Positions 7,715-50,145 of a stretch of DNA of 64,000 bases are shown here, piece after piece. Position 1 is the stretch's first letter, and every line of letters begins with the position of its first letter. Source of the DNA: Pseudomonas sp. MM223 (GTDB lineage: Bacteria; Pseudomonadota; Gammaproteobacteria; Pseudomonadales; Pseudomonadaceae). The stretch covers positions 5,325,001 to 5,389,000 of the forward strand of contig OX352322.1 in the NCBI GenBank assembly GCA_947090765.1, in the 5' to 3' direction. The notes under the pieces were generated by a model. The model did no database searches. It worked only from the letters and a program-made list of their open reading frames with translations, and had not been told where the DNA came from. The position numbers and the translations under genes are program-made.

Positions 7715-7921
7715 TTATAAAGCTCCCAGCAGCCTCACCACCAGGAACAACACACAAACGAACAGCGCTGCGTCGAACAACGCTTCATGCCAGATCCAGC
7801 GCCCCAACGGCGTCGCCTGCACCACCAGGCGCAGCAAGCCGGTGAGCACCAGCGCCAGCAACACATAAAACAGAAACGGGCTGAGCAGCACGCCGCCCAC
7901 TTCCCATTCACGCAACCCCAT
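7715..7921 (-). CDS. DUF1656 (AaeX-like) small membrane protein
   Basis: This 68-residue protein has two hydrophobic segments (residues about 11-33 and 48-66). It begins MGLREWEVGGVLLSPF, which matches the DUF1656 family found in aae-type efflux operons. Its ATG overlaps the end of the upstream FUSC gene by 14 bases, suggesting translational coupling. A role in assembly or function of the pump is assumed from context. Confidence 0.85.
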   Translation of the reverse strand: MGLREWEVGGVLLSPFLFYVLLALVLTGLLRLVVQATPLGRWIWHEALFDAALFVCVLFLVVRLLGAL

Positions 7922-9896
7922 GGGCTTCCTCCTGCCAGCGGCACCACTTGCCCCAGCTTTTCTGCAATTGCAGCACCGCACCTTCAGCCAGCCGCAGCGG
8001 GTCACTTGCAGGCAGCCGGCGCAAGGCGGCAATGAAGTGTTCGCTTGCGGCGTCCAGGCGCTGCCCACGCCCGGCGGCTGGCCCTTTGGCCAGTACCGCC
8101 TCCACCTGCTGCAAGTACTCGCGCTCGGCCCGCCCCAAGGGGGCTTGGGCGACCGCCAGGCACATGCGCAGGTGCACCAGTTCATCGCCGATATCCAGCC
8201 CATGCAGGCCGTCATCCCAGCGTTTGCGCTCGCTCTCGGGCAGCTCGCCGGCATGCCGTGCCAGTTGCATCAGGCGGTCGGCCATGCGCCCGCCAAACCA
8301 GCTGTCGGCACCGCGCAGGTCGCGCCGGGTCAGGCGTACCAGGTCGTTCTGGGTGGCAGCACGCAAGCGCCGGCCTAGCCAGGCCGGGTGACGGAACACC
8401 AGCAAACGGAAGGCCATTACCGCTGCCGACACCCCAACCAGCATCGCCAGCGCACTGTTGAGCATGGTCGCCACACCAAACTGCATGGCGTTGAGCGGGG
8501 ACACCAGCACAATGAAGTGCAGGCAATAGGAAGTGGCGGTGGCCCCGGTACGGGGATGGGCCATGCCCAATGCGCCAAGAAAAAGCGGCACGCCCATGCC
8601 CAGGCAAAGCATGGCGAAGCTGCTCCATTGCGGCAGCAGGATCTGCCCGACCAGAAACGCCGCGGGTATTGCCAGGAAGATCCCGCGCAGGAAGCTCAGG
8701 CCAATCTGCGCGCCGTTCTCGCGGCTGGCGAACAAGCTACAAACCACGCACGTCAGCACCAGCCCACCCGGCGCCGAAGGCCAGGCGGTCGCCAGCCAGA
8801 AACCGCTCATTACCAGAAAGGCCAGCGCGCTGCGTGAACCGAACAGCAAGGCCAGCGACCAGTCGCGGTGCACGGCAAGCCCCTGGGACACATCCTTGGG
8901 TGCCCTGCCCGCCTCCACATCTTCCAGTGCCAGGCTGGCGGCCATGGCGTAATCCAGCAACAAGGCCATGCGCGCCAGGCAGAAGTGCTCCGCCGAACTG
9001 ATCTGTTCATCATGGGCGGCATCCCAGATGCGCTGGCGCAGCAGTAACAGGCTGGGTTGGTCAGGTTTGCCCAACAGTGCGCGAACCTCTTCCAGCCAGT
9101 GTGCCAGGTGAGCGGCCTCACGCTCATCGAGTTGCCGCCACTGCCGGCGCACCGAGCGCGAGATGCGCAACAGCACCATCAGCTTCTGGCTCAGGCCACG
9201 GATGGCACGGGCTCGCTGGCGCCCACGGTTGCCTTCGAACCAGGCATGTTCACGCTGGCTGTCGATGGCGACGATACGCCCCAGGCTCTCCAGCAAGCCT
9301 TTGCGCGCCTCGTCCTCACCGCCCAACATGGCACTGGCAGCCTGTAGGCCGTTCTGCCAGGCCTGCCGGGCCTGCCCACCTAATTGCTGCTCTACCCGCA
9401 TTGGCCAGAGCAAGGCACTGCTGGCGGTAGCACAGAAAATGCCCAGGCAGATCTCGGTACAGCGCGCCACGGCCTGGTCAAATACCTGCAGCGGGTGGTC
9501 GATGGCCGGCAAGGCAATGATCGCAGCGGTGTAGCCCGCCAATACAAAGGCATAGGCCCAGGCACTGCGCAGTTGGGTCGAGGCAGCGGTGCACAGGGCC
9601 AGCCACAAGGCCAGGGTAATCAGGAACAAACCAGGGGTCTGGGCAAACAGGCCGATGAACACCACCGACATGACCGTGCCGACCAAGGTACCGGCCAGCC
9701 GCGCCAAGCCTTTCTGCACCACCATCCCCGACAGCGGCTGGGCAACGATGAAAGCGGTCATCAGTGCCCAGGACGGTTGCTCCAGGCCCCAGCGCATCGC
9801 CAGCCACAACGCCAGGCCACCACCCAGCAAGGTCTTGATGGCGAACTTGAGGGCGAGGCTGCTGGGGGCGAACAGGGCCTGAAGGGTGATGGGCAC
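7908..9896 (-). CDS. FUSC-family (AaeB-like) inner-membrane efflux pump
   Basis: This 662-residue protein has two clusters of membrane segments, residues about 15-165 and 350-500, separated by a long cytoplasmic helical region, with a soluble C-terminal part. That is the FUSC/AaeB architecture. AaeB-type pumps with an AaeA adaptor export aromatic carboxylic acids such as p-hydroxybenzoate and related compounds. Translation appears to start at a GTG (9896), with an AAGG-containing ribosome site about 10 bases upstream. A SlyA/MarR-like palindrome lies 74-87 bases upstream of the start, so control by a MarR-type repressor is possible. No regulator gene is adjacent. Confidence 0.88.
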   Translation of the reverse strand: MPITLQALFAPSSLALKFAIKTLLGGGLALWLAMRWGLEQPSWALMTAFIVAQPLSGMVVQKGLARLAGTLVGTVMSVVFIGLFAQTPGLFLITLALWLALCTAASTQLRSAWAYAFVLAGYTAAIIALPAIDHPLQVFDQAVARCTEICLGIFCATASSALLWPMRVEQQLGGQARQAWQNGLQAASAMLGGEDEARKGLLESLGRIVAIDSQREHAWFEGNRGRQRARAIRGLSQKLMVLLRISRSVRRQWRQLDEREAAHLAHWLEEVRALLGKPDQPSLLLLRQRIWDAAHDEQISSAEHFCLARMALLLDYAMAASLALEDVEAGRAPKDVSQGLAVHRDWSLALLFGSRSALAFLVMSGFWLATAWPSAPGGLVLTCVVCSLFASRENGAQIGLSFLRGIFLAIPAAFLVGQILLPQWSSFAMLCLGMGVPLFLGALGMAHPRTGATATSYCLHFIVLVSPLNAMQFGVATMLNSALAMLVGVSAAVMAFRLLVFRHPAWLGRRLRAATQNDLVRLTRRDLRGADSWFGGRMADRLMQLARHAGELPESERKRWDDGLHGLDIGDELVHLRMCLAVAQAPLGRAEREYLQQVEAVLAKGPAAGRGQRLDAASEHFIAALRRLPASDPLRLAEGAVLQLQKSWGKWCRWQEEAHGVA

Positions 9897-37886: not shown

Positions 37887-38154
37887 TTCGCGGCGCCTCC
37901 TGCGCACGGGGGATGGACATGACATGGAAGATACCTGTCAGCAGGATCTGCAAACGGTCGAACCAGCGGTGGCTGCGCCCCCGCAGGCTGCCATTGAAGA
38001 ACAGCACTTCGAGCAGGTGCAAGCCGAACAGGACGATGCCAGCGGCATTGATCAGCAGGTTGAAGGGCACAGGTTGTGGCATCAGCTGATTGAACAACAC
38101 CACCCCCCAGAAAGCGACCGTCAGGACCTTGCCCAGGCCCAGGATGAACTTCAT
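37879..38154 (-). CDS. DUF1145-family small membrane protein, 91 aa
   Basis: MKFILGLGKVLTVAFWGVVL starts a protein with two or three hydrophobic segments (about 5-22, 30-54, 68-84). It fits the DUF1145 family of inner-membrane proteins. Its stop overlaps the start of the collagen-like gene, so the two are probably cotranscribed and translationally coupled. Confidence 0.8.
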   Translation of the reverse strand: MKFILGLGKVLTVAFWGVVLFNQLMPQPVPFNLLINAAGIVLFGLHLLEVLFFNGSLRGRSHRWFDRLQILLTGIFHVMSIPRAQEAPRNA

Positions 38155-38252
38155 ACCCCGCCCCTATAAATTGTTGTTATGTCGAGACGGCCCGTTCGAG
38201 CAGGCCGTGCGACCAACATTACCTGCAATACCAAGGCAGGCGCCAGCACCGC

Positions 38253-38972
38253 TCAGTTGAGGTGCAGCTCCACCCGTCGGTTGCGGGCGCGGCCCTCCTC
38301 ACTTTCGTTATCGGTGATCGGCTCGCTTTCCCCACGGCCCTGGCTGGTGACCTTGCCCGGCTCCAGGCCTTGGCTGATGAGGTATTCGGCAACACTGCTG
38401 GCACGGCGCTCGGAAAGCGCCTGGTTGTAGCTGTCGGAACCCACGTTGTCGGTGTGCCCGATCACGCTCACCTTGGCTATCGTCGGTGAGTCGAGTTTTG
38501 CCACCAGGCCTTGCAACCGTTGCTGCGCCGCCGGGGTCAGGTCGGCAGAATCGAAGGCAAACATCACCGCACCGTTGTCATCGAGGATGATCACCTCTGG
38601 CGAGGGCTCAGGTGCCGTGGCAGGTGCCGCTACCGGGTACTCCTTCAGCGGGCAACCCATGTGGTCGACTGCGGTGTTGGCGGGGGTATCCGGGCAATGG
38701 TCGCGGCGGTCGAAAATGCCGTCGCCATCTTCGTCACCATCCTGGGCGTAACAGATCAACCCCCCGGCGATGGCACCCAACGCACCGCCACCTGCGGCCC
38801 AGGTAGAACTTTCAATAGCGCCCAGGCCGCCACCGACCAGGCCGCCCAGTAGGCTGCAGATGGGCCAGGTCCTTTGGTTGAGCGGCGCGCTACCATCGCT
38901 GTGGGTTGCACAGCCCGCGAGCAGGCTGGCAGCCACCAACAGCGGCAGTGCCGCCTTCGACGTCACACTCAT
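38253..38972 (-). CDS. OmpA-family lipoprotein with calcium-binding-like repeat
   Basis: From ATG 38972 (MSVTSKAALPLLVAASLLAG, lipobox LLAGC) this is a 239-residue protein. A glycine-rich hydrophobic region (GGLVGGGLGAIESS, GGGALGAIAGGL) precedes an acidic TSP3-like repeat (DGDEDGDGIFDRRDHCPDTP). The OmpA domain follows (MFAFDSADLTPAAQQRL, GHTDNVGSDSYNQALSERRA, GRARNRRVEL). It should anchor to peptidoglycan and the outer membrane. The neighbouring gene at 39061 is a paralogue. Confidence 0.85.
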   Translation of the reverse strand: MSVTSKAALPLLVAASLLAGCATHSDGSAPLNQRTWPICSLLGGLVGGGLGAIESSTWAAGGGALGAIAGGLICYAQDGDEDGDGIFDRRDHCPDTPANTAVDHMGCPLKEYPVAAPATAPEPSPEVIILDDNGAVMFAFDSADLTPAAQQRLQGLVAKLDSPTIAKVSVIGHTDNVGSDSYNQALSERRASSVAEYLISQGLEPGKVTSQGRGESEPITDNESEEGRARNRRVELHLN

Positions 38973-39060
38973 GCTGAATGCTCCTGTGTCATTGGCCACT
39001 AACGGCTGACCGGCATGAAGACGCGCCCGCGCCACTGCTCAAGGCACGGGCGCACACCGT

Positions 39061-39753
39061 CTACCGCTGGATCTTGATTTCGGTACGGCGGTTCATGGCA
39101 CGCCCTTCGGCCGTGGCATTGTCCGCCACAGGCTGGGTTTCGCCTGCACCCACCACCGAAACGAAGCTGCTGCGCGGTACACCGCTCTCGATCAGGTAAT
39201 CGGTCACCGAGTGGGCACGGCGCTCAGACAGTTTCTGGTTGTAGCTGTCGGAGCCAACGCTGTCGGTATGGCCGCTGACGCTCAGGCGGGCGGATGGCGC
39301 TTCCTGCTTCAGACGCGTGGAAATGGTATTGAGGCGCTCTTTGTCACGGGCGGTCAGGCGCGCAGAATCGAACTCGAAGTGCACATCGCGGATGACGATG
39401 ACTTCTTCTTTCTGCACCACCACTTCCTCGACCACTGCTGCCGGCTCAGGCGGGCATCCGTTGGCATCCACCTGCACACCACGCGGGGTGCCCGGGCACT
39501 TGTCACGGCTATCCGGCACGCCATCGCCATCCTCGTCGCCATCGCCGTGGGCCCAGCAATAGCCCGCCGCCAGGCCACCGCCCAGCAAGGCGCCCCAGCC
39601 AGCCCAGCTGGAACTTTCAATAGCGCCCAACGCGGCGCCGCCTACACCCCCGACGGCGGCACACTTCGGCCAGTCGGTTTTTTGCAAACCTGCACAACCA
39701 GTCAACACACTGGTGAGCAGTACCAGGGGTATCGCTGTGCGTACTATGCTCAT
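39061..39753 (-). CDS. OmpA-family lipoprotein with calcium-binding-like repeat (paralogue)
   Basis: Start ATG 39753 with ribosome site AGGAG; 230 residues. Signal and lipobox (MSIVRTAIPLVLLTSVLTGC), the same glycine-rich hydrophobic region (GGVGGAALGAIESSSWAG), TSP3-like repeat (DGDEDGDGVPDSRDKCPGTP) and OmpA domain (FEFDSARLTARDKERL, GHTDSVGSDSYNQKLSERRA, GRAMNRRTEI). It was probably created by tandem duplication with the gene at 38253; the two share the whole domain plan. The upstream extension of this frame lacks a start signal. Confidence 0.87.
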   Translation of the reverse strand: MSIVRTAIPLVLLTSVLTGCAGLQKTDWPKCAAVGGVGGAALGAIESSSWAGWGALLGGGLAAGYCWAHGDGDEDGDGVPDSRDKCPGTPRGVQVDANGCPPEPAAVVEEVVVQKEEVIVIRDVHFEFDSARLTARDKERLNTISTRLKQEAPSARLSVSGHTDSVGSDSYNQKLSERRAHSVTDYLIESGVPRSSFVSVVGAGETQPVADNATAEGRAMNRRTEIKIQR

Positions 39754-39912
39754 TTCATTGCTTCTCCTAGGGGGAATCGGCATAAGGCCGATCTCTGGGA
39801 GTAAAGACCGCGCATTCCAACCCTGCCAGCAATAAGCCACGACGTGCTCACAAGCCTCTTTGCCCGCACGCCGCAGCCCGCTAGTCTTGGACGACTTGAA
39901 CGAGGATTGGCA

Positions 39913-40407
39913 ATGACCGACGGTTTTTCCCAACGTACCCCGCAGCAGGCCCTGGCGGCCCTGCTCGAACGCTTCACCCCGCAACGCCTGCTGCTGGTCG
40001 GCACGCGTTTCCCGGCGCTGGACGCCTTCGCCCAGGCGCACCCCCAGGTGACTATTGCCACTGCTGCCCCAGGCCCGCTGTCGGCCGAACTGGCCGGCCA
40101 ACGTTTTGACCTGGCGGTGCTGGTGGACTGCCTGGAACACCTGCCCAAGCGCACCGGACTGGAACTGCTCGGCGGCATTCGCAACCTCAATGCCAGCCGG
40201 GTAGCGGTGCTGGCCGACCTGGCCGCGTGCGGCTGGCAAGACACCGACTTCTTTGCCCTGGCACTGTCGGCCAGCGAGAAATTCCGCCGTGACCAGCAGG
40301 TTTTGAGCCTGTTCACCTATGATCTACATGACTACAAGCAGGTCCCGGACTGGCTCAACGCCAGGTTCTGGGCCAACCCTGAAAACTTCGGCAAGTATTG
40401 GTGGTGA
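39913..40407 (+). CDS. DUF6231-like protein, 164 aa
   Basis: ATG 39913 follows GAGGA. The protein begins [20 protein letters not shown] and contains [17 protein letters not shown] and [20 protein letters not shown]. These look like the glycine-rich and acidic motifs of a Rossmann-type methyltransferase fold, but the SAM-binding motif is incomplete. It is best called a conserved Pseudomonas protein (DUF6231-like) with uncertain activity. The next gene starts at its stop codon, suggesting an operon with ychJ-like and LEA2 genes. Confidence 0.65.
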
Positions 40408-40409
40408 TG

Positions 40410-40886
40410 ATGAGTGTCTCGGTCTGCCCTTGTGGCAGTGGCAACCTGCTTGATGCCTGCTGCGGGCATTACCATGCCGGTACCCCGGCACCGGATGCCC
40501 AAACGCTGATGCGCTCACGCTACAGTGCCTACGTGCTTGGCCTGGTGGACTATCTGGTAGCCACCACCCTGCCAGCCCAGCAAGCCGAACTGGACCGTGC
40601 CGGCATGGCTGCCTGGAGCGCCCAGAGCACGTGGCTGGGCCTGGAAGTGGAAGGCGCCGAAGTGCTGGGTGGCCAACCGGAGCACGGTTTTGTCACCTTC
40701 ACCGCACGCTGGCACGACCAGGACGGCGATCACCAGCACCGTGAACGTTCGGCGTTCGTCCAGCATGCCGGGCGCTGGTATTTCATCGACCCCACGGTCG
40801 GACTGAAAGCCGGGCGCAATGACCCCTGCCCCTGCGCCAGCGGGCAGAAGTTCAAGAAATGCTGCGCCAGTTACGTGGGTAGCTGA
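40410..40886 (+). CDS. YchJ-family protein with SEC-C zinc motif
   Basis: 158 residues beginning [20 protein letters not shown] (an adjacent ATG at 40407 is an equal candidate and overlaps the previous stop). The N-terminal CPCGSG motif and the C-terminal [18 protein letters not shown] form the two zinc-binding SEC-C-like ends of the YchJ/UPF0225 family, with an NTF2-like middle ([20 protein letters not shown]). The function is unknown in all species. Confidence 0.85.
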
Positions 40887-40888
40887 GC

Positions 40889-41365
40889 ATGATGGCCCGC
40901 GCCCGCCTGCTGTTGCTCGCCCCCTTGCTGGCGCTGCTGGCGGGCTGTGCCAGTTGGGGCGGTGACGACTGGCGCGAACCCGAAGTGCACCTGGTCGAGG
41001 TCGAAACGGTCAAGGCCAGGTTGCTGGAGCAGGAGTTCGTACTGCACCTGCGGGTCGACAACCCCAACGACAGCCGCCTGTTCATCCGCAACCTGTCGTA
41101 TGCAATACGCCTCAACGACCTGCTGCTGGTGCAGGATGAAACCAGTGTATGGCGCAGCGTGGGTGGGCACGCACGGCGCACCTTCAAGATCACCGCCCGC
41201 ACCAACCTTTGGCAACACCTCAAGCCATTGGCCAAGCTGCTCAAAAGCAAGCAACCGCTGCATTACACCCTGCAGGGCGAACTGGCCACCGGGTTGCTCA
41301 TCCATCGGGACCTGCACTTATCGCGCAGTGGTGAGATAATCCCCGGCGATCACATCCCGGAGTAA
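40889..41365 (+). CDS. LEA type 2 (WHy-domain) lipoprotein
   Basis: 158 residues; signal and lipobox [20 protein letters not shown]. The body shows [20 protein letters not shown] and [20 protein letters not shown], typical of the LEA14/WHy beta-sandwich domain that protects against desiccation or stress in other species. The start could be 40889 or 40892. Two bases separate it from the preceding gene, so it is in the same operon. Confidence 0.8.
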
Positions 41366-41372
41366 CCCTGCA

Positions 41373-41576
41373 ATGTCCCAACAACCCCACGTTCATGGCC
41401 CAGACTGCAACCACGATCATGACCATGACCACCACCACGATCATGGCCATGTACACGGCCCGCACTGCAACCACGGCCACCAGGAGCCGGTACGCAACGC
41501 CCTGAAGGACGTTGGCCGTAACGACCCATGCCCTTGCGGTAGCGAGAAAAAGTTCAAGAAGTGCCACGGCGCCTGA
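41373..41576 (+). CDS. Histidine-rich SEC-C metal-binding protein, 67 aa
   Basis: The first 36 residues are a histidine/aspartate-rich metal-binding sequence with a duplicated pattern ([12 protein letters not shown] and [12 protein letters not shown]). The end, [20 protein letters not shown], is a SEC-C zinc motif of the SecA tail type. It is the last gene of the 39913-41576 group. The histidine stretch could bind Zn, Ni or Co; its role is unknown. SEC-C motifs in SecA bind zinc and SecB. Confidence 0.85.
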
Positions 41577-41607
41577 GCCTGATCAGACACCTGCTGTGGG
41601 CGCTCGC

Positions 41608-42510
41608 CTAGGCGGCCTTTCGCCGGGTCGCCCCCAGCAAGTCCTGGTACCAGAGGCCGGCGTCATAGGCGATGGTCACCAGGGTGGTCGCGGCATAGCG
41701 CGGGTGCTGTGCCATGCGCTGGGCAACGGCAAGGCAGGCTGCGGCGGTATTCCCCACGAAAATGCCACTTTGCATGTAGAACCAGCGCTGTGCCGCCAGC
41801 ATTTCTGCGTGCTGTACCTGCGCCCGCTCGTCTACCAGCGACCAGTCCATGAAAGGCGGACAAACGCCCACCGCCATGCCTTCAAAGCGATGGTCGGTGA
41901 ACACGCCCGCCCTTGAGTCACAACCGCTGGGGTCGACCAACACCGTCGACACATCAAAACCGTGGTCCTTCAGCCCCAGGGTAATACCTGTGAAACTTGC
42001 GCCAGTGCCGGCGCAGCCGACAAACAGGATTTCCCGCCCGGCCCCGACGTTGGTCAGTTGCACGGCCAGTTCACTGGCCGTCTGGTAACGATGGGCTTCA
42101 ATACCCACCGGGTTGTTGAACTGATCGGTGTAGAAGTAGGACTTGCCCAGCGCAGCCTGGTTATCCAGGTGATGCATCACGACATCCTTGGGCGTGGCAC
42201 CGGCCATCAGCATCTCCTTGCCGATCAGCCTGGCACCAAAACACTCCAGCAAATCCCGTTTGGTCTGGCTGAAACCAAGCCCTACCGCCAGTTCCACCGC
42301 GACCTGGTACTTGTGACAGGCCGCCAGCAAGCCGAAACCGAAACTGCCACCGGTTTTTTCAATGACCGTAGTCACACCCGGGATGATGTCACCGTTGCGC
42401 AAGGCATGTTCGACGATGTGCCGGGCTGCCCGGTACTTGTGGCTGCCGCCAGGGTTGTTCATTTCCAGTTTGGTGTAGATGCGTTCGCTGACGCTGATGA
42501 GCTCGCTCAT
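41608..42510 (-). CDS. Beta-family PLP-dependent enzyme (cysteine-synthase-like)
   Basis: ATG 42510 gives 300 residues. PLP-lysine motif MNNPGGSHKYRAARHIVEHA near residue 25 and phosphate loop CAGTGASFTGITLGLKDHGF near 185-205 place it in the O-acetylserine sulfhydrylase/tryptophan synthase beta fold. The usual substrate-carboxylate loop TSGNTG is replaced by EKTGGSFGFGL, so it is not an ordinary CysK/CysM. It is last in a four-gene operon in which every pair of genes overlaps by the 4 bases ATGA. With a serine acetyltransferase upstream, it may make a beta-substituted alanine from O-acetylserine; this is inference. Confidence 0.85.
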   Translation of the reverse strand: MSELISVSERIYTKLEMNNPGGSHKYRAARHIVEHALRNGDIIPGVTTVIEKTGGSFGFGLLAACHKYQVAVELAVGLGFSQTKRDLLECFGARLIGKEMLMAGATPKDVVMHHLDNQAALGKSYFYTDQFNNPVGIEAHRYQTASELAVQLTNVGAGREILFVGCAGTGASFTGITLGLKDHGFDVSTVLVDPSGCDSRAGVFTDHRFEGMAVGVCPPFMDWSLVDERAQVQHAEMLAAQRWFYMQSGIFVGNTAAACLAVAQRMAQHPRYAATTLVTIAYDAGLWYQDLLGATRRKAA

Positions 42511-43718
42511 TTGCGGCTTCCTTCCATTGAAGTGTGCAGACAGGCCTTGTTCTGCAGCAGGCCGGCCGTGGCAAACAGCAAACCGATGCACAGGGCCATG
42601 CAGATGGCGTTGGTGCCATCCCAGCCAACCGTACTCAGCAGTAACGAAGGGCTGAACGCACCGACGGTTGCCAAGATGGCAATGGCCAGGTCGTTCTTGC
42701 CCTGCATCTGTATCGCTGCCGGGCTGTTCTGCAGCGACTGGGCCAGCAATGCGCCGCCGCCCACATAGGTCAGGTTCCAGCCCAGCCCGAGGGCAATCAG
42801 CGCCAGGGTCATCATGGCGTAGCTGTGCGACCAGACATTCAGCGCCGAGCACCCGATCAACAGCGCCAGCCCGGCACAGATGGTGGTCTTGATGCCCAGC
42901 TTCTGGATGATTGCGCCGGTGAAAAATGAAGGTGCAAACATGGCGACCACATGCCACTGGATGGCCAGGCGCACGTCAGAGAAGTCCTCATGCATGTGCT
43001 TCATGTGCATCGATGCCTGAATCATGAGCAGGTTCATGATCCCGTAGCTCAATGCCGCAACCGCCATGGCAACTTTCACGGACGGGCTGAGCGGTTCGGC
43101 GCGCAAAGTGGCCGATTGTTCCGTTTGCTGGCTTGCCTTGGCGATGCCGACATCGTTGGGCAGGCAAATGGCAATCGCCAGCGACATCACTGCCAAACCG
43201 ATGAAAGAGGCATAACACAGCGAAAACAACGGGTACCCGCCAACGTCCCTGAGCCACTCGGTCAGTGTCGGCCCCACCACGGCTGCAATCACGCCCCCCG
43301 CCACCACCAGTGAAAGGGCTTTGGGCTTGAGGCTCTGGGCCAGATTGTCAGTGGCCGCGAAACGGTTGAAGTTGGCGAAGGCGATATAAACGCCCAACGC
43401 CGAGTGGCTCAACACCAGCAGCGGGAAATGCTGGTACTCCACCGCCAGATAACCGCTGATACCAGAGGCCGCCAAGGGGATCGCCCCCAGCATGAACGCC
43501 TTCTTGCGACCGATACGGCTCATCAACCTGGAGACCGGGTACGTAGCCAGCATCAGGCAAAGAAACTGGAACCCGTAGGGTACCGTGGACCACGCCGCAG
43601 CCGGCGCCAATGCGGCCCCGACGATGGCGGCCATGGTCACGGACATGACAGCGGTGGTCAGGTTGATCGACTGAGCGGTGAAATACAGGTAGGTACGCCG
43701 CGGGAGTGTGCTGTTCAT
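42507..43718 (-). CDS. MFS transporter
   Basis: 403 residues with 12 predicted membrane segments and an MFS loop after helix 2 (VSRLMSRIGRKKAFMLGAIP). It could import or export; in this operon an exporter of the product is plausible. It overlaps both neighbours by 4 bases (ATGA), so its expression is coupled to them. The substrate cannot be read from the sequence. Confidence 0.85.
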   Translation of the reverse strand: MNSTLPRRTYLYFTAQSINLTTAVMSVTMAAIVGAALAPAAAWSTVPYGFQFLCLMLATYPVSRLMSRIGRKKAFMLGAIPLAASGISGYLAVEYQHFPLLVLSHSALGVYIAFANFNRFAATDNLAQSLKPKALSLVVAGGVIAAVVGPTLTEWLRDVGGYPLFSLCYASFIGLAVMSLAIAICLPNDVGIAKASQQTEQSATLRAEPLSPSVKVAMAVAALSYGIMNLLMIQASMHMKHMHEDFSDVRLAIQWHVVAMFAPSFFTGAIIQKLGIKTTICAGLALLIGCSALNVWSHSYAMMTLALIALGLGWNLTYVGGGALLAQSLQNSPAAIQMQGKNDLAIAILATVGAFSPSLLLSTVGWDGTNAICMALCIGLLFATAGLLQNKACLHTSMEGSRK

Positions 43719-44503
43719 AGCGCAGGCTCGTGATAGGTAGACACATCGATTTCGGCATCTGGGAATACGCAGATCAGCCGCTCCTTGCCTTTGCCCAGGC
43801 GTTTGCGGCGCACAGACACGCGCCCGATGCGCCGAGGCGACTCAAGGTGTGTGCCGCCGCACGGTATTTCGATGCCGTTGTAGGTCCACAGACGCGCGTC
43901 TTCCAGGCCCTGCACCGCGTAGTGTTCGATGGGCGCATCACAGGCGATCAGCTCATTTGCACGCCGTTCGATCTCAACCACGTCTTCGGCAGTGAATGCG
44001 TCTTCGACCAGAAAATCGAAACGCGCAGAGTCCTCCTTGATATGGCAGCCGATGGTCCACTGTTTCAATTCTTCACGCAGGCTGATGGCGGCGGCATACA
44101 GGAAGTGACTGGCACTGTGAGACAGCGTCAACCGTTCGCGCCGCTCAGTATCAATCGTCACGCGGGCCGGCATGCCAACGGTGACTTCATCCAGCAGGTG
44201 CAAGTCATCAGGGTGCAGGCTGTGAATAATGATGCCACCCAGTTTCCCGCCTTTGAAACCTTCCAGGCGAATAGGGCTACCGTAGAGTTTTTTTACCCAG
44301 ACAAAGCGCACAGTACCTATCGGTAGTTCAATCGTGCCAAAGTCAGCCTCCTGGCCGCCACCTTCGGGATAGGCCACGGTACTCTGCAATTCGATACCGT
44401 CACTGTGCACCCGCGTTACTTGAGTATTCGCGCCCGCCTGGTATTGGTCTTTGTAATACAGTTTCTCGGTATTGCGCAAAACTTCATAATTCAGAGAATT
44501 CAT
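43715..44503 (-). CDS. AlaX-like alanyl-tRNA editing protein
   Basis: 262 residues of the alanyl-tRNA synthetase editing-domain family. The zinc-binding HxxxH is visible in SHSASHFLYAAAISL (about residues 127-141) and the second half in IPCGGTHLESPRRIG (about 215-229), both intact. AlaX proteins hydrolyse wrongly charged Ser-tRNA(Ala) or Gly-tRNA(Ala) in trans. A N-terminal beta-barrel (LQSTVAYPEGGGQEADFGTI) also matches. Coupling with a serine acetyltransferase, PLP enzyme and transporter suggests a protective role against a mischarged serine-like amino acid. Confidence 0.85.
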   Translation of the reverse strand: MNSLNYEVLRNTEKLYYKDQYQAGANTQVTRVHSDGIELQSTVAYPEGGGQEADFGTIELPIGTVRFVWVKKLYGSPIRLEGFKGGKLGGIIIHSLHPDDLHLLDEVTVGMPARVTIDTERRERLTLSHSASHFLYAAAISLREELKQWTIGCHIKEDSARFDFLVEDAFTAEDVVEIERRANELIACDAPIEHYAVQGLEDARLWTYNGIEIPCGGTHLESPRRIGRVSVRRKRLGKGKERLICVFPDAEIDVSTYHEPAL

Positions 44504-45339
44504 GGTTCCAGTACCACCTGCAATGATGTTTTTACCTGTACCCGGGCAGCGGCTGGGACATCTTTTGTAATAATGCAGCCCGGCCCGATGAATGCGCCGT
44601 CGCCGACGTGGATAGCGCCCAGCACACTGGCGAACGCGCCGATCTGTACCCGGTTGCCCAAGGTCGGGTGCCTGGGGCTCGAAGGGTTGTCACTGATACC
44701 GCGGGCACCCAGGGTGACACCGCCAAGTACGTAGCAGTCGTCCCCAATGGTCGAAGTTTCACCAATGACGGTGCCCATGCCGTGATCGATGATGAAGCGC
44801 GCACCGATACGGCTCCGGAAATGAATCTCCGCCCCCGAGAGCATTTTTCCGCGCCTGGAAATCATGGCGGCCAGGCATTGGCCGCCAGCGCCGTATGTAG
44901 AGGCAGTATTGCGGTAGACCCAGTGAGCAAGCCGATAATGCAAAACCGCAGAATAAGAGGTGTAAGTTCTTGCAATAAAAACCAGGTCGCGGCCAGCCGC
45001 TGGATCTTTCTGGGCAAAGGCCTGCAAGTCGTCATGGGCTTGTTCAGAAACACTTTCAATGATCAGTGTTTCTTTCAGCGCCTCGAACTCGTCGATTGAA
45101 CAGCATTCCAATAACGCCGAGGTCACAAGATTCTTTACAACTTTGAATGACGCCAGTTCGTCAGGCAAAGGGAGCCTGGCAATCACGGCTGACTGCATGT
45201 CCATAGTCTGCATGGGCTTGATATCCAGTTGTCTGGTCTGCACAGACGCTAAAAGTGCCGCCTTTGCTGGCAGCCGAAAGTTCCGACAAGGGGATAGTGG
45301 CAGGTACTGGCCATTTGCAAACGAACAGTCGACAAGCAT
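44500..45339 (-). CDS. Serine O-acetyltransferase (CysE-like)
   Basis: 279 residues; an N-terminal helical domain, then a left-handed beta-helix: FRSRIGARFIIDHGMGTVIGETSTIGDDCYVLGGVTLGAR and RHPTLGNRVQIGAFASVLGAI. The His of IDHGMG corresponds to the catalytic His of CysE. The C-terminus ends RVQVKTSLQVVLEP and lacks the GVPARxVG ending that CysE uses to bind CysK. It would form O-acetylserine from serine and acetyl-CoA. It is the first gene of the operon divergent from the MocR gene. Start ATG 45339; shorter in-frame starts exist. Confidence 0.85.
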   Translation of the reverse strand: MLVDCSFANGQYLPLSPCRNFRLPAKAALLASVQTRQLDIKPMQTMDMQSAVIARLPLPDELASFKVVKNLVTSALLECCSIDEFEALKETLIIESVSEQAHDDLQAFAQKDPAAGRDLVFIARTYTSYSAVLHYRLAHWVYRNTASTYGAGGQCLAAMISRRGKMLSGAEIHFRSRIGARFIIDHGMGTVIGETSTIGDDCYVLGGVTLGARGISDNPSSPRHPTLGNRVQIGAFASVLGAIHVGDGAFIGPGCIITKDVPAAARVQVKTSLQVVLEP

Positions 45340-45385
45340 TTCCGTTAACTGTTAGGCTTTTTTTTCTAACGGTTTTGGACCTGCC
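45340..45385. promoter_or_regulatory. Shared divergent promoter of the MocR gene and the serine-acetyltransferase operon
   Basis: Only 46 bases separate the two start codons. They contain CCGTTAACTGTTAG (45342-45355), a T-tract and CTAACGG (45366-45372), so CCGTTA and TAACGG make an inverted repeat at 45342-45347/45367-45372. These are natural candidates for the MocR operator, which in studied cases consists of repeated half-sites near the two promoters. Confidence 0.55.
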
Positions 45386-46726
45386 ATGAACCCCTGCAAC
45401 CTACATCACCTGTTGAAACAGCGCCTGGATGCAGGCGAGTGGTTGCCAGGGCAGCGCATGCCCTCCATTCGCAAACTCACGGCCGCAGTCGATTTCAGTT
45501 ACCACGACGTGGTATCGGCCTATGCCCAGCTGGTCAGTGAAGGGGTGTTGACGGCCTCGCCCGGCCGAGGCTACTTCGTCGCAAACCGCACCCGGCAGAC
45601 GAGCGTGATCCACGAACCCGAATGCATGGCCGGCGATCCGCTGTTCCGCCTGCTGCAGGGCGGCCAGCACTACATCAAACTGGGCAGCGGCTGGCTGCCC
45701 CCGGCATGGCGCGACACCGAGCTGCTGGCCAAGGCAATTCGACGCACGGCGCGGCTGGAGCAAAGCTCGCTGGCAGAGTACGGCGACATCCAGGGCTACC
45801 TGCCCATGCGCAAACAGCTGTGCGTGCACATGAAACGGCTGACCCGCGTGGAGGCCCGCCCCAACCAGTTGCTGACTACCCTGGGCGCCACGCAGGGCCT
45901 GGACCTGGTTGCCCGGTTGCTGATCAAGCCAGGCGACCACGTGTTCGTCGACGAACCGGGCAACGGCAACCTGATCAAGCTGATCCAGCTGGCTGGGGGG
46001 CACGTCGTCGGCATCCGCCGGACCCAGGACGGGCCGGACGTGGAAGAAATGAGGCGCTACCTGGCCACGCATAAGGTCAAGGCGTTCTTCTGCAACAGCA
46101 CCTTCCACAACCCGACCGGCAGCAATATCAGCCCGCACAACGCCTTCAGCGTGCTGCGCCTGGCGGTGGAGCACGAGTTCTTCGTGGTCGAGGATGATGT
46201 GTATGGCGACTTCAGCCCCGCCGTGCGCCAGACCTTCGCCGAGCTGGACAACCTTGACCGGGTCATCTACATCGGCAGTTTTTCCAAATGCCTGTCCGCC
46301 TCGTTGCGCGTGGGCTTCATCGCCTGCTCACAAGACCTGATAGAACCGCTGACCCGCCTGAAACTGCTGACCTGCGTGGCCGTACCTGCGTTTTGCGAGC
46401 GTTTCGTCAACACCATATTGTCGGACGGCACCTATGCCCGGCACATGAAGGATGTGCAGCAGCGCCTGATCAGGCAGCAAGTCCAGACCCAACGTCTATT
46501 GCTTGACCGCGGCTGGCAGTTCGACATCGCGCCGCAAGGGGGCATGTTCCTCTGGGTCTATCACCCGGACCTGCCCGACCTGCAACCTCTCGTGCGCAAG
46601 CTGGAGCAGCACAAGATCCTGCTGATGCCCGGCTCTGCGTTTGCCGTCACCCGTGACTACCGACGCTATGCGCGCATCAATTGCACGCATTTTTCCGAGA
46701 CGCTGGCAGACCATTTCAACGTTTGA
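45386..46726 (+). CDS. MocR-type GntR/aminotransferase-like transcriptional regulator
   Basis: 446 residues. N-terminal winged helix (residues about 5-70: [20 protein letters not shown] and [12 protein letters not shown]) of the GntR type is fused to a class I aminotransferase-like domain. The PLP lysine is in [17 protein letters not shown], and other PLP-fold parts are visible ([21 protein letters not shown]). MocR proteins respond to PLP and an amino acid. It is divergent from the four-gene operon and is its probable regulator. Confidence 0.9.
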
Positions 46727-46829
46727 GCCTGCGCAGGCAAATAAACCGACCTGGGACCTTGCACCACGCCTGCGCGCTTACTACCTTAGCGCCTTTCGAA
46801 ACCCGCCTCGCCTTGCAGGAGCCCTTGTC

Positions 46830-49271
46830 ATGGCCGCCCCCGCCTTTCCTCCCTTCCGCCTGCGGTTTGCAACCGCCGCCACGCTGCTCGGCATGCTCGG
46901 GCTGGCCGGCTGCCAGACGGGCGGCCACCAGGACAGCGTGCCACCGACCAGCGGCGTACAACCGCTCAAAGGCCTGGCGCAGAACGTCTCGGTACGCCGC
47001 AACGCCATGGGCGCGCCGCTGATCGAAAGCAGCAGCTTCCACGATGCGCTGTTCAGCCTGGGCTACGTGCACGCGGGTGACCGTATCGAGCAGATGGTTG
47101 CCATGCGCCTGCTCGCCCAGGGTCGCCTGGCCGAACTGGCCGGCAGCGATGCACTGGACATCGACCGCCTGATGCGCGCAGCCAACCTCAAGCAAAGCGC
47201 TGCCCAGCAATACGCCGACGCCTCGCCACGGCTCAAGCGCTTCTTCGAGGTGTATGCACGCGGGGTCAACGCCTACCTGTTCCGCTACCGCGACAAGCTA
47301 CCGGCCGACCTGGCCAACAGCGGCTATCGCCCCGAATACTGGAAGCCCGAGGACTCGGCGCTGATCTTCTGCCTGTACGCGTTCAGCCAGTCGGTGAACC
47401 TGCAGGAAGAACTGAGCGCCCTGACCCTGGCGCAGAAAGCCGGCAGCGACAAGCTGGCCTGGCTGCTGCCCGGCGCCCCGGATGAGCCACTGGCTGAAGG
47501 CGAAGTGGACAAGCTCAAGGGCCTGAACCTGGCCAGCCAGTTGCCGGGCCTGCCAGCGCTGGCGGCCGCCAGCCAGAAACTGGCCGACCTTGACCTGCTC
47601 GGCAGCCCGGGCTCGGCCAACCTGGCCCTGGGCCCGCAGCGCAGCCGCAGTGGCAAGAGCCTGCTGGCCAGCGACAGCCGCGCCGCCTGGGCCCTGAGCC
47701 CGGTACAAATCCACACGGGCAAGTACCAGGTTGCCGGCCTGTCGTTGCCCGGCCTGCCGATCGTGCTGGCTGGCTACAACGGCAAGCTGGCCTGGAGCAG
47801 CAGCGCAGTGATGGCCGACAACCAGGACCTGTACCTGGAACAACTGCGTCGCCAGGGTAGCCAGCTCAGCTACCTGGCCGATGGCAAATGGGTACCGGCC
47901 CGCGCCCGTAGCGAAACCTTCTTTGTGCGTGGCCAGCGCCCGCTGCGCGAGGTGATGTACGACACCCGCCACGGCACCCTGCTGGCACAACCCGACAGCG
48001 CCAGCCTGGGCCTGGCGCTGAACCTGCCACAGTTCAAGGGCGACCGCAGCCTGGATGCACTGTTTGACCTGACCCGAGCCAAGAACGTGGAACGCGCGTT
48101 CGACAGCACCCGTGAAGTAACGGCTGCTGCCCTCAACTTCGTCTTCGCCGAGCCCGACCATATCGGCTGGCAGGTCAGCGGCCGCTACCCCAATCGCCGT
48201 GAAGGCCAAGGCCTGCTGCCCTCACCGGGCTGGGACGGGCGCTATGACTGGGACGGCTATGCCGACCCGATGCTGCACCCCTACGACCAGGACCCACCCG
48301 CCGGCTGGCTCGGCCACGCCAACCAGCGCAGCCTGCCGCGTGGCTATGGCATGCAGTTGTCCAGCACCTGGTATTACCCGGAACGCGCCGAGCGCCTGGC
48401 CCAGTTGGCCGGTAATGGTCGCCACGACAGCCGCAGCCTGATGGCCCTGCAAAACGACCAGGTGACCCTGCTGGCCGGCAAGCTCAAGCAGATGTTCGAT
48501 GCCCCTGGCATGGCCCAGCCACTGAAGCAGGCGATCGATGCTCTGCCCGCCGCACAGCGCGACAAGGCCAAAGACACGCTGGCCCGGCTCAAGGCCTTCG
48601 ACGGCCGTCTGAGCCCGGTGTCGGCGGATGCAGCGCTGTACGAGTTGTTCCTGCAAGAAGTGGCACGGCAGACGTTCCTCGACGACCTTGGCCCGGAGTC
48701 CGGCCCGGCGTGGCAGGCGTTCGTCAGCAATGCACGGTTGTCGTTCTCGGCGCAGGCCGACCACCTGCTGGGCCGCGACGACAGCCCGTTCTGGGATGAC
48801 CGCAGCACCCCGCAGAAAGAAGACAAACCCACCATCCTCGCCCGCAGCCTGGCGGGTGCAGTGGATGCCGGCACCGCGCAACTGGGTGCCGATCGCCGCG
48901 CCTGGCAGTGGGGCAAGCTGCACCAGTACCGCTGGCCGGCCCCGGCCTACCATGGCCTGGGCGATGCGATCAGCCGTGCGCCACTGGCCGCGGGTGGCGA
49001 CTTCACAACCCTGGCCCTCACGCCCTACGCCTGGGGCAGCGACTTCGACACACGCCTACCGGCCTCGGCACGGATGATCGTCGACTTCGGCCAGTCCGAA
49101 CCGTTGCAGGTGCTGACCAGCAGCGGGCAGTCCGGCAACCCGGCCAGCGCGCACTACAGCGACGGGCTGGATGCCTGGTTCAAAGGGCGCTTCATGAGCC
49201 TGCCTTTGCAACCACAGAACTTTGGCAGGGCGTATGGCAACCAGCGCTTGACCTTGGTACCTGGCAAGTAA
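46830..49271 (+). CDS. Penicillin-acylase-family (Ntn-hydrolase) lipoprotein
   Basis: From ATG 46830 the protein has 813 residues; the lipobox LGLAGC lies at about 26-31. The longer frame starting at 46641 overlaps the MocR gene and was rejected. Alpha chain about 50-265, then the putative processing site [18 protein letters not shown] with Ser as nucleophile, and a long beta chain ([20 protein letters not shown]). The motif after the Ser runs [14 protein letters not shown], where the related acylases have ANPHF/NDPHL. Family members act on penicillins or acyl-homoserine lactones (PvdQ, QuiP). Activity here is not assured because key residues differ. Confidence 0.8.
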
Positions 49272-49279
49272 TCCCTGAA

Positions 49280-49307
49280 CCAGAGCCGCCAGCGTTGGCG
49301 GCTCTGG
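49280..49307. terminator. Perfect 12-base stem between acylase and hicB
   Basis: CCAGAGCCGCCA/TGGCGGCTCTGG with a 4-base loop, located in the convergent gap of 38 bases between the acylase and hicB stop codons. There is no T-run, so efficiency is uncertain. Confidence 0.6.
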
Positions 49308-49309
49308 CC

Positions 49310-49735
49310 TCAAACGGCTACGACTGAAAGCTCGATTCGCTGCCCCAACACATTCAGCGCATGCTCAACCTGCTCGATTTTGGAGCGGTGCAACAGATCG
49401 ACCAGACGATCGACCTGGGGACGATTTACCCCTAGCCTGCGCGCCATCTCGGTCTTGCTGATTTTTTGTGCCACCATCGTGTTCCACAGCGCCGCCTTCG
49501 CTGCCGTCAGGGCTGGCAGACGTACGACGGGATGACCCTCTGTAGGCGCTGAAGGTAGCGGGATAGCGTGCTTCTGATCCACATAGAAGGAAAGCGCAGA
49601 CTCCAACGCATCCACAGCATCGAACAGCGCCTCCTCCGAAGTATCACCCGCGCAGGCCATTTCTGGTACATCGGGACAACTCACCCAAACACTGCCGTCT
49701 TCTTGATGAACGACCACCGGGTACTCGAATATCAT
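49310..49735 (-). CDS. hicB: HicB-family antitoxin with C-terminal HTH
   Basis: Start ATG 49735 (MIFEYPVVVHQEDGSVWVSC) with ribosome site GAGGGG gives 141 residues. An ATG at 49759 overlapping the hicA stop is an alternative. The N-terminal partial RNase-H fold (VVVHQEDGSVWVSCPDVPEM) is the HicB core, and the C-terminal part (VAQKISKTEMARRLGVNRPQ) is a helix-turn-helix that would bind the promoter and repress the pair. It neutralises the HicA toxin. hicA-hicB order is standard. Confidence 0.88.
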   Translation of the reverse strand: MIFEYPVVVHQEDGSVWVSCPDVPEMACAGDTSEEALFDAVDALESALSFYVDQKHAIPLPSAPTEGHPVVRLPALTAAKAALWNTMVAQKISKTEMARRLGVNRPQVDRLVDLLHRSKIEQVEHALNVLGQRIELSVVAV

Positions 49736-49755
49736 CACACGCCCCTCTAAACCCT

Positions 49756-49938
49756 TCATGCTTTCAATCCCAAGTCTTTCAGGATCTTCTTTCTCAGGCC
49801 CTCACTGATTTCCTTCGCGCCATGATCCGGGAAAATCGTTTGCCGATTGCCTAGGTAAACCTTGAAATGACTGCCCTTGGCTGCCACGAACGTAGCGCCC
49901 TGGCCGCGTAGCCATCGGCGAAATTCACTGTATTTCAT
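49756..49938 (-). CDS. hicA: HicA-family mRNA interferase toxin, 60 aa
   Basis: Start ATG 49938 (MKYSEFRRWLRGQGATFVAA) with AAAGG ribosome site. Its double-stranded-RNA-binding-like fold has the catalytic histidine in AAKGSHFKVYL. The 60-residue length is typical. Its stop overlaps a possible hicB start (ATGA). Toxin HicA cleaves mRNA when HicB is lost. Confidence 0.9.
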   Translation of the reverse strand: MKYSEFRRWLRGQGATFVAAKGSHFKVYLGNRQTIFPDHGAKEISEGLRKKILKDLGLKA

Positions 49939-50145
49939 GCAAGCCTTTGTAGAGTCAATGTGCATGACGCGCCAGCAGACCGCAACATTTATGTTGCGCC
50001 TACTCACTTGATCAAACAGTTAACCGCAAAAGGCCTTTCGTCATTTCTGAATGGCACGTAGCCCATTTCGCTGAATAAAACCGTTCGAACTCCTGGGACA
50101 GTTCGGCGCTCCTAAGAAGTACTTTCAGCAACCAGCGCCGGCGCC

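Follow-up and report, generated by a model that had tools for sequence, protein, structure and literature searches.

Gene content and layout of the operon

The window analyzed here is the whole 64,000-nucleotide stretch of the Pseudomonas sp. MM223 genome (contig OX352322.1, positions 5,325,001 to 5,389,000), and positions below refer to it unless another record is named. It contains an operon of four genes encoding a serine O-acetyltransferase-like protein (SAT), an AlaX-like trans-editing protein, a transporter of the major facilitator superfamily (MFS) and a pyridoxal 5'-phosphate (PLP) enzyme, together with a divergent MocR-type regulator (Table 1). The four operon genes lie on the minus strand and each consecutive pair overlaps by ATGA, seen as TCAT on the plus strand at 44500-44503, 43715-43718 and 42507-42510. 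The overlaps and the divergent regulator described in the initial annotation were confirmed from the open reading frames (ORFs) and TCAT positions, and its gene identities, including the atypical nature of the PLP enzyme, agree with Pfam and NCBIfam matches. The PLP enzyme start at 42510 sits within a longer mechanically called ORF.

The SAT start had been placed at 45339, leaving 46 bases between SAT and the regulator; this part of the description did not hold. When the MocR-SAT DNA of 14 loci is aligned, the distance from the ATG corresponding to 45339 to ATGGACATG (Met46) is divisible by three in two of the eight closest named loci, and in the other six the upstream frame fails to reach SAT. 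Because in these six relatives the upstream frame does not continue into Met46, ATGGACATG (window 45204) is most likely where SAT translation starts, and the intergenic gap is therefore about 181 bp. The gap contains an operator-like direct repeat, AACCGTTAG-N12-AACAGTTAA, whose core is conserved across the 14 aligned loci. It has a single match in the window at three or fewer mismatches (shuffles give a mean of 0.03). Paired half-sites on the same face of the DNA are a usual feature of MocR regulators.

Table 1. Features of the operon and its control region in the window (paired scores are bits/curated cut-off)
Feature	Position	Strand	Remarks
PLP enzyme (PALP)	41608-42510	-	300 aa; Pfam PALP 146.9 bits
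MFS transporter, presumed exporter	42507-43718	-	403 aa; Pfam MFS_1 60.3 bits
AlaX-like trans-editing protein	43715-44503	-	262 aa; AlaXM 98.8/300 bits
SAT	44500-45204 (start revised from 45339)	-	CysE 143.9/210.65 bits
Operator-like direct repeat AACCGTTAG-N12-AACAGTTAA	45345-45374	-	21-bp pitch, between MocR and SAT
MocR-type regulator, divergent	45386-46726	+	Pfam GntR HTH + Aminotran_1_2

All five proteins fall below the curated cut-off of their nearest NCBIfam family. The PLP enzyme stays below all the cysteine-synthase cut-offs (cysKM 143.7/344.15, cysK 131.2/350.95 and cysM 104.9/394.2 bits) and also that of SbnA, an enzyme of the 2,3-diaminopropionate route (119.6/349.95 bits). The best NCBIfam match of the MFS protein is a multidrug superfamily (27/131 bits), and a sequence search of PDB gave no relative of it at E<=1e-2. 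MocR reaches 221.6 of the 320 bits required for PdxR, and SAT, with a Pfam match to Hexapep, stays under the CysE cut-off. AlaX scores 22 bits against Pfam tRNA-synt_2c (cut-off 30.3) and does not reach the AlaXM equivalog.

The predicted structure of the PLP enzyme (pLDDT 85.7) has O-acetylserine sulfhydrylase (OASS) among its best Foldseek matches; the 50 matches listed are all of OASS type, with TM scores (query) of 0.77-0.83, and include beta-cyanoalanine synthases. In a 13-sequence alignment K25 (in an SHK motif), G54, G55, F57 and Q130 are invariant. The clade to which the enzyme belongs has a missing or shortened N-terminal arm and an altered substrate loop. The loop is TSGNT in canonical cysteine synthases; here it is TGG[NS]F, with serine in the window and its closest relatives (TGGSF) and asparagine in more distant ones (TGGNF). 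The model and alignment clearly place the protein in the OASS fold with its catalytic lysine, as a predicted beta-replacement enzyme of atypical type. It shares this fold and PLP lysine with CysK/CysM, SbnA and cystathionine beta-synthase, but differs from them in its sub-threshold scores, shorter N-terminus and TGG[NS]F loop.

Members of the AlaX superfamily carry a metal site made up of HxxxH and CxxxH. In the window protein the corresponding motifs are HSASH and CGGTH, and H129, H133, C215 and H219 are invariant in 25 sequences. The AlaX model (pLDDT 93.8) has editing domains of alanyl-tRNA synthetase (AlaRS) and AlaX-M as its best PDB matches in Foldseek. By predicted fold and metal site the protein clearly belongs to the AlaX/AlaRS-editing superfamily.

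Above-cut-off copies of CysE (258.8 bits) and of cysteine synthase (two, at 432.8 and 411.2 bits) are encoded elsewhere in the genome. Because of these, a housekeeping cysteine pathway was rejected for the operon, and sequence comparison supports a dedicated role.

Distribution and analogous loci

The PLP enzyme and AlaX were searched for in 398 Pseudomonas genomes. At E<=1e-20 the PLP query matched 390 genomes because ordinary cysteine synthases also match it. Nineteen genomes scored at least 454 bits, and the background did not exceed 103 bits. Exactly the same 19 genomes carry an AlaX of the window kind (type I) at E<=1e-40. Three genomes fall between the strong set and the background and were left out of the count of complete loci: G249 (361 bits, no AlaX), G397 (265 bits) and G384 (153 bits). 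The last two hold PLP remnants only, a partial match with one TAG in G397 and a match of 92 residues in G384; this 92-residue remnant adjoins an IS4/5-type transposase gene (L059 6143-6418 and 6539-7642). In G292 a TGA in the PLP match is the end of the gene at residue 291, like in P. saxonica (L042). At most five or six candidates per genome were scored in the PLP, type I AlaX and type II AlaX searches, so misses are possible; one genome without a match in the PLP search (G359) nevertheless has a complete type II locus (see below).

All 19 type I loci were examined. Eighteen share the order of the window, divergent MocR followed on the other strand by SAT, AlaX, MFS and PLP. In the 19th, assigned to P. 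cichorii, a more distant SAT is combined with a methyltransferase, AzlC, AlaX and PLP. Of the 15 loci from named Pseudomonas records, at least 11 appear to match genomes among the 19, and the two sets are not independent. Outside the genus, type I AlaX was detected in five of 101 genomes of one family, all five from Kushneria. Four of these loci have the order MocR, AlaX, MFS, PLP and SAT, again with divergent MocR; the SAT is downstream and comes from another SAT branch. The SAT-AlaX-MFS-PLP arrangement is also found in G465, outside Pseudomonas, and in Roseateles koreensis (L048). In the latter the PLP reading frame is broken close to the N-terminus (7860-8100), by either a mutation or a sequencing error. 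The G465 cassette has a DDE transposase gene nearby (L072 4042-4665) and an RraA-like gene immediately after the PLP gene (L072 9565-10119). Contig ends carry part of AlaX, MFS and PLP in a Burkholderiales metagenome-assembled genome, and MFS and PLP in Verminephrobacter. Since type I AlaX occurs in three of 145 genomes from the order and three of 398 from the phylum (the genome of the window being counted in both), the unit is rare and its distribution patchy. Among plasmids, the PLP enzyme had no match at E<=1e-40, and AlaX matched one Comamonas record.

Lack of co-conservation in other genomes would have refuted the initial annotation; the genes instead stay together across Pseudomonas (18 of 19 loci) and in three or more further genera. 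It might be argued that AlaX is a passenger, linked to its neighbors by shared descent with no functional coupling, and G249, which keeps SAT, MFS and PLP without AlaX, fits such a view. The exact coincidence of the AlaX and strong-PLP genome sets (19 and 19 of 398) makes this explanation highly improbable, and it was rejected on co-occurrence. A further point against it is that two distant AlaX types (about 28-30% identity) are joined to SAT and PLP genes in differing orders and with different exporters.

The second of these types was reached through weak matches of the first search. The type II locus consists of a divergent MocR followed by an EamA-family gene, a JAB-ThiF-rhodanese gene, PLP, SAT and AlaX, and corresponds to PA2100-PA2106 of P. 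aeruginosa. Type II AlaX was found in 73 of the 398 genomes, none of which carries type I. The full order is present in 69 of the 73 loci; the remaining four lack exactly JAB-ThiF, PLP and SAT. The absence of overlap between sets of 19 and 73 (hypergeometric P 0.019, with relatedness ignored) is only suggestive of mutual exclusion. The type I and type II PLP enzymes, like the two AlaX proteins, are about 28-32% identical, and the SATs of both types group together in a tree of 15 sequences (support 92). Neither EamA nor JAB-ThiF-rhodanese was found in the 19 type I loci, positions 38001-50000 of the window included. The P. cichorii locus represents a third layout, SAT-methyltransferase-AzlC-AzlD-AlaX-PLP, with a divergent AraC-type gene in the named records. 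Its class I methyltransferase gene, between SAT and AzlC (L039 5073-5918), may modify the product. SAT, the PLP enzyme and AlaX thus recur across the layouts, and the exporter family changes (MFS, EamA or AzlC/AzlD).

Individual type II genes have appeared in the literature. In published tables PA2101 is given as an EamA-type permease, PA2102 as a JAB protein, PA2103 as MoeB, PA2104 as a cysteine synthase and PA2106 as an AlaS-domain protein; a paper from 2026 puts forward PA2105, alongside PA2104, as a second candidate SAT (PMC9431628, PMC9866376, PMC13256707). PA2100 is described as MdrR2, an efflux-pump regulator, and PA2100-PA2103 as induced by N-acetylcysteine (PMC9431628). Operons of JAB, E1-rhodanese and cysteine synthase genes, with P. 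aeruginosa among the hosts, were reported in a 2006 survey, in which the words alanyl, AlaX and serine acetyltransferase are absent (PMC1779556). Within the open-licence literature, outside which most subscription journals lie, we found no paper joining serine acetyltransferase with AlaX, and none joining an alanyl-tRNA editing protein, a gene cluster and an amino acid.

Putative retained protection and editing specificity

The four reduced type II loci retain MocR, EamA and AlaX, and their downstream flanking gene is shared with 42 of the 69 complete loci. An earlier midpoint-rooted tree of type II was compatible with either loss or gain of the missing block. An outgroup-rooted AlaX tree was then thinned to 26 of the 73 type II loci plus eight outside sequences; in it the four designated outgroup sequences are not monophyletic. 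A clade (support 90) comprises the 26 loci and two of the outside sequences and excludes the remaining six. That clade splits into a group of immune-only (reduced) and main loci (100) and a group of four deep complete loci with the two outside sequences (98). The four immune-only loci are monophyletic (100), and one complete locus diverges ahead of them (95); other inner supports are 29-74. The nesting of the four AlaX sequences among complete loci indicates that the synthesis block was lost. In the reduced loci dN is about one-tenth of dS for both AlaX and EamA, as under purifying selection, and the AlaX metal-site motifs are intact. A similar case is found in Kushneria G433, where MocR and AlaX alone are present within the 14 kb examined; it is independent of the type II losses. 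Judged from these sequences, the pattern looks like self-protection outlasting synthesis.

These retained genes bear on an explanation in which the locus detoxifies an environmental nucleophile (cyanide, sulfide, an amine or a thiol): the nucleophile would be trapped on O-acetylserine, the conjugate exported, and AlaX would clear the resulting mischarging. Such a role would suit the presence of beta-cyanoalanine synthases among the structural matches of the PLP enzyme, the scattered occurrence of the locus (19 of 398 genomes) and the lack of an obvious nucleophile-making gene among the five genes of the 18 standard loci. A detoxifier would, however, lose its purpose with its synthetic block, and exporter and AlaX stay after that loss. 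The five-gene set also has no enzyme that would use the conjugate further, although the flanks were not searched for one. We regard detoxification as quite improbable.

The specificity of AlaX was considered by comparing the best 120 database relatives of each type; gene neighborhoods are not part of these data. Two residues after the conserved editing-site threonine, the window protein has alanine, at residue 44, in place of phenylalanine. Among type I relatives this position is alanine in 112 of 119 (leucine in four, phenylalanine in two, isoleucine in one; one relative lacks the motif), and in type II it is phenylalanine in all 116 with the motif (four lack it). The residue after GGGQ is glutamate in 113 of 119 type I relatives (aspartate in five, alanine in one) and proline in 115 of 116 of type II (glutamine in one). 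AlaX proteins bearing the alanine/glutamate motif also come from Azospirillum, Marinobacter, Paraburkholderia and Azotobacter. The alanine-for-phenylalanine change may widen the amino-acid pocket of AlaX.

The strongest competitor, especially for type II, is a cysteine or O-acetylserine overflow unit, in which SAT and the PLP enzyme would increase the supply of O-acetylserine or cysteine and cause its export, to serve redox, sulfur or signaling needs, and AlaX would simply clear Ser-tRNA(Ala) at high levels of serine or its esters. Both enzymes belong to cysteine-pathway families, and the JAB-ThiF-rhodanese sulfur-transfer protein is present in type II. Earlier work points the same way: the 2006 report of cysteine synthase/JAB/E1-rhodanese operons, that of P. 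aeruginosa included (PMC1779556), and the induction of PA2100-PA2103 by N-acetylcysteine (PMC9431628). Against this stand the separate CysE and two cysteine synthases of the genome, the failure of the PLP enzyme to reach any cysteine-synthase cut-off and the absence of the type II sulfur-transfer protein from all 19 type I loci. AlaX also persists in loci that have lost SAT, and its type I motif is unlike the phenylalanine form. We consider the overflow explanation rather unlikely, though it is the main rival.

A putative make-export-protect unit and its context

The reading that we favor, with modest confidence, is that the operon is a dedicated unit that makes and exports a three-carbon, beta-substituted L-alanine and protects its host from it, AlaX clearing the mischarged tRNA. 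The sequences show the gene content and order, the co-occurrence, the predicted folds and, in analogous loci, that EamA and AlaX are kept where synthesis has been lost; we infer all substrates, the direction of export, the editing substrate and the effector as follows. SAT would acetylate L-serine to O-acetylserine, the acetoxy group of which would be replaced by a small nucleophile through the OASS-like PLP enzyme, and the MFS protein would export the product. AlaX would hydrolyze the product, or a serine-like relative, from wrongly loaded tRNA, most likely tRNA(Ala). MocR would sense an amino acid and control both promoters via the conserved direct repeat. With ammonia as the nucleophile the product would be 2,3-diaminopropionate, our leading candidate. 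In Bacillus subtilis, 2,3-diaminopropionate and other C3 amino acids are exported by the EamA-family protein AexA, and AzlCD has a part in the export of 2,3-diaminopropionate (PMC11005379). Because these exporter families replace MFS in the analogous loci, a beta-substituted alanine is favored, with 2,3-diaminopropionate as first candidate.

Much of this agrees with the initial annotation, which had proposed an operon that makes and exports an amino acid with AlaX as a safeguard. The co-conserved genes, with the editing gene kept beside synthesis and transport genes in type I (18 of 19 loci in the standard order, the 19th with AzlC) and type II (69 of 73 loci complete), and the separate CysE and cysteine synthases speak for that proposal; its spacing was wrong, and G249 is an exception to it. 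The further idea that AlaX protects translation from mischarging of the product draws support from the loci that retain AlaX after loss of synthesis and from the family-wide change in the editing motif, and AlaX may have this role. The case for a toxic amino acid mischarged to tRNA, which again comes from the loci that retain AlaX, is circumstantial.

Several observations weigh against this interpretation. G249 has SAT, MFS and PLP with neither AlaX nor MocR in 16 kb, and its genome contains no AlaX at E<=1e-40; AlaX is thus not strictly needed. This cassette (L057 7136-9993), near hisC/hisD-like genes, is the clearest counterexample, and the tally is two retention events for the interpretation and one clear exception against it. 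The type I-like AlaX of Comamonas endophytica has neither SAT nor PLP within 7 kb, and an orphan AlaX could serve general Ser/Gly-tRNA(Ala) editing. The gene lies on a plasmid near an annotated EamA-family gene (L091 3637-7747), possibly as a protection-only locus. The type II locus carries a sulfur-transfer protein, and it at least may make cysteine or another thiol; the induction of part of it by N-acetylcysteine may fit a thiol product, and its MocR (PA2100/MdrR2) is not necessarily dedicated to amino-acid sensing. The exporters EamA and AzlCD have a broad substrate range. Finally, the changed AlaX residue was placed in the pocket by sequence reasoning and not from a ligand-bound structure.

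The initial annotation had called this the best candidate for an undescribed system, which is too strong as regards the kind of system. McMurry and Chang reportedly described in 2017 a fluorothreonyl-tRNA deacylase, with a transporter, in the fluorothreonine producer Streptomyces cattleya. Both clusters would combine synthesis of an antimetabolite amino acid with a trans-editing deacylase and a dedicated transporter. The present one differs in using SAT and an OASS-like enzyme, in having no fluorine, in belonging to another phylum and in that its deacylase substrate is putative. By this analogy the kind of system has a precedent, and the chemistry and gene set differ. The 2017 work is cited in two later papers (PMC9609677, PMC10250548). 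The canavanyl-tRNA(Arg) deacylase CtdA of P. canavaninivorans likewise stands alone beside the genes for one toxic amino acid, but it is tied to degradation of an external toxin rather than synthesis and is B3/4-like, not an AlaX (PMC10018355). A close arrangement is PA2100-PA2106, where divergent MocR, exporter, PLP enzyme, SAT and AlaX again occur together; it has EamA instead of MFS, an extra JAB/ThiF/rhodanese module, another gene order, and PLP and AlaX proteins about 30% identical to those of the window.

Other genes flank the operon in the window. A penicillin-amidase-family gene (46641-49271, plus strand; 592 bits) lies 3' of MocR, its mechanical ORF overlapping the MocR end, and such a gene follows MocR in P. 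putida-group loci. Farther on, 49310-49759 (minus strand) is an ORF for a HicB-like antitoxin, its HTH match being weak. Convergent with the 3' end of the operon is an ORF for a small His-rich protein of 67 aa (41373-41576, plus strand) with a C-terminal SEC-C motif (Pfam 44.3 bits); the product of 40398-40886 is similar in part to the C-terminus of this protein. Two adjacent OmpA-domain ORFs (38253-39035 and 39061-40239, minus strand) look like tandem paralogues.

A wider proposal, possible but more doubtful than the make-export-protect reading itself, is that pseudomonads and some other proteobacteria possess a family of producer and immune loci for toxic three-carbon amino acids. Synthesis would be carried out by SAT and a specialized OASS-like enzyme, and an exporter and AlaX of matching specificity would confer immunity; non-producers would keep the exporter and/or AlaX in the manner of bacteriocin immunity genes, and the alanine-for-phenylalanine change would tune AlaX to a product larger than serine. 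If this is true, an unrecognized small amino acid is a product of bacteria common in soil and on plants, and AlaX beside SAT and an OASS-like enzyme would be a handle for genome mining. The PA2100-PA2106 set would, as type II, have a role open to testing, and immune-only lineages should be shielded by their EamA and AlaX from what a relative makes. Translational proofreading would then be a recurrent form of immunity in amino-acid competition, and not a feature of one fluorine producer.

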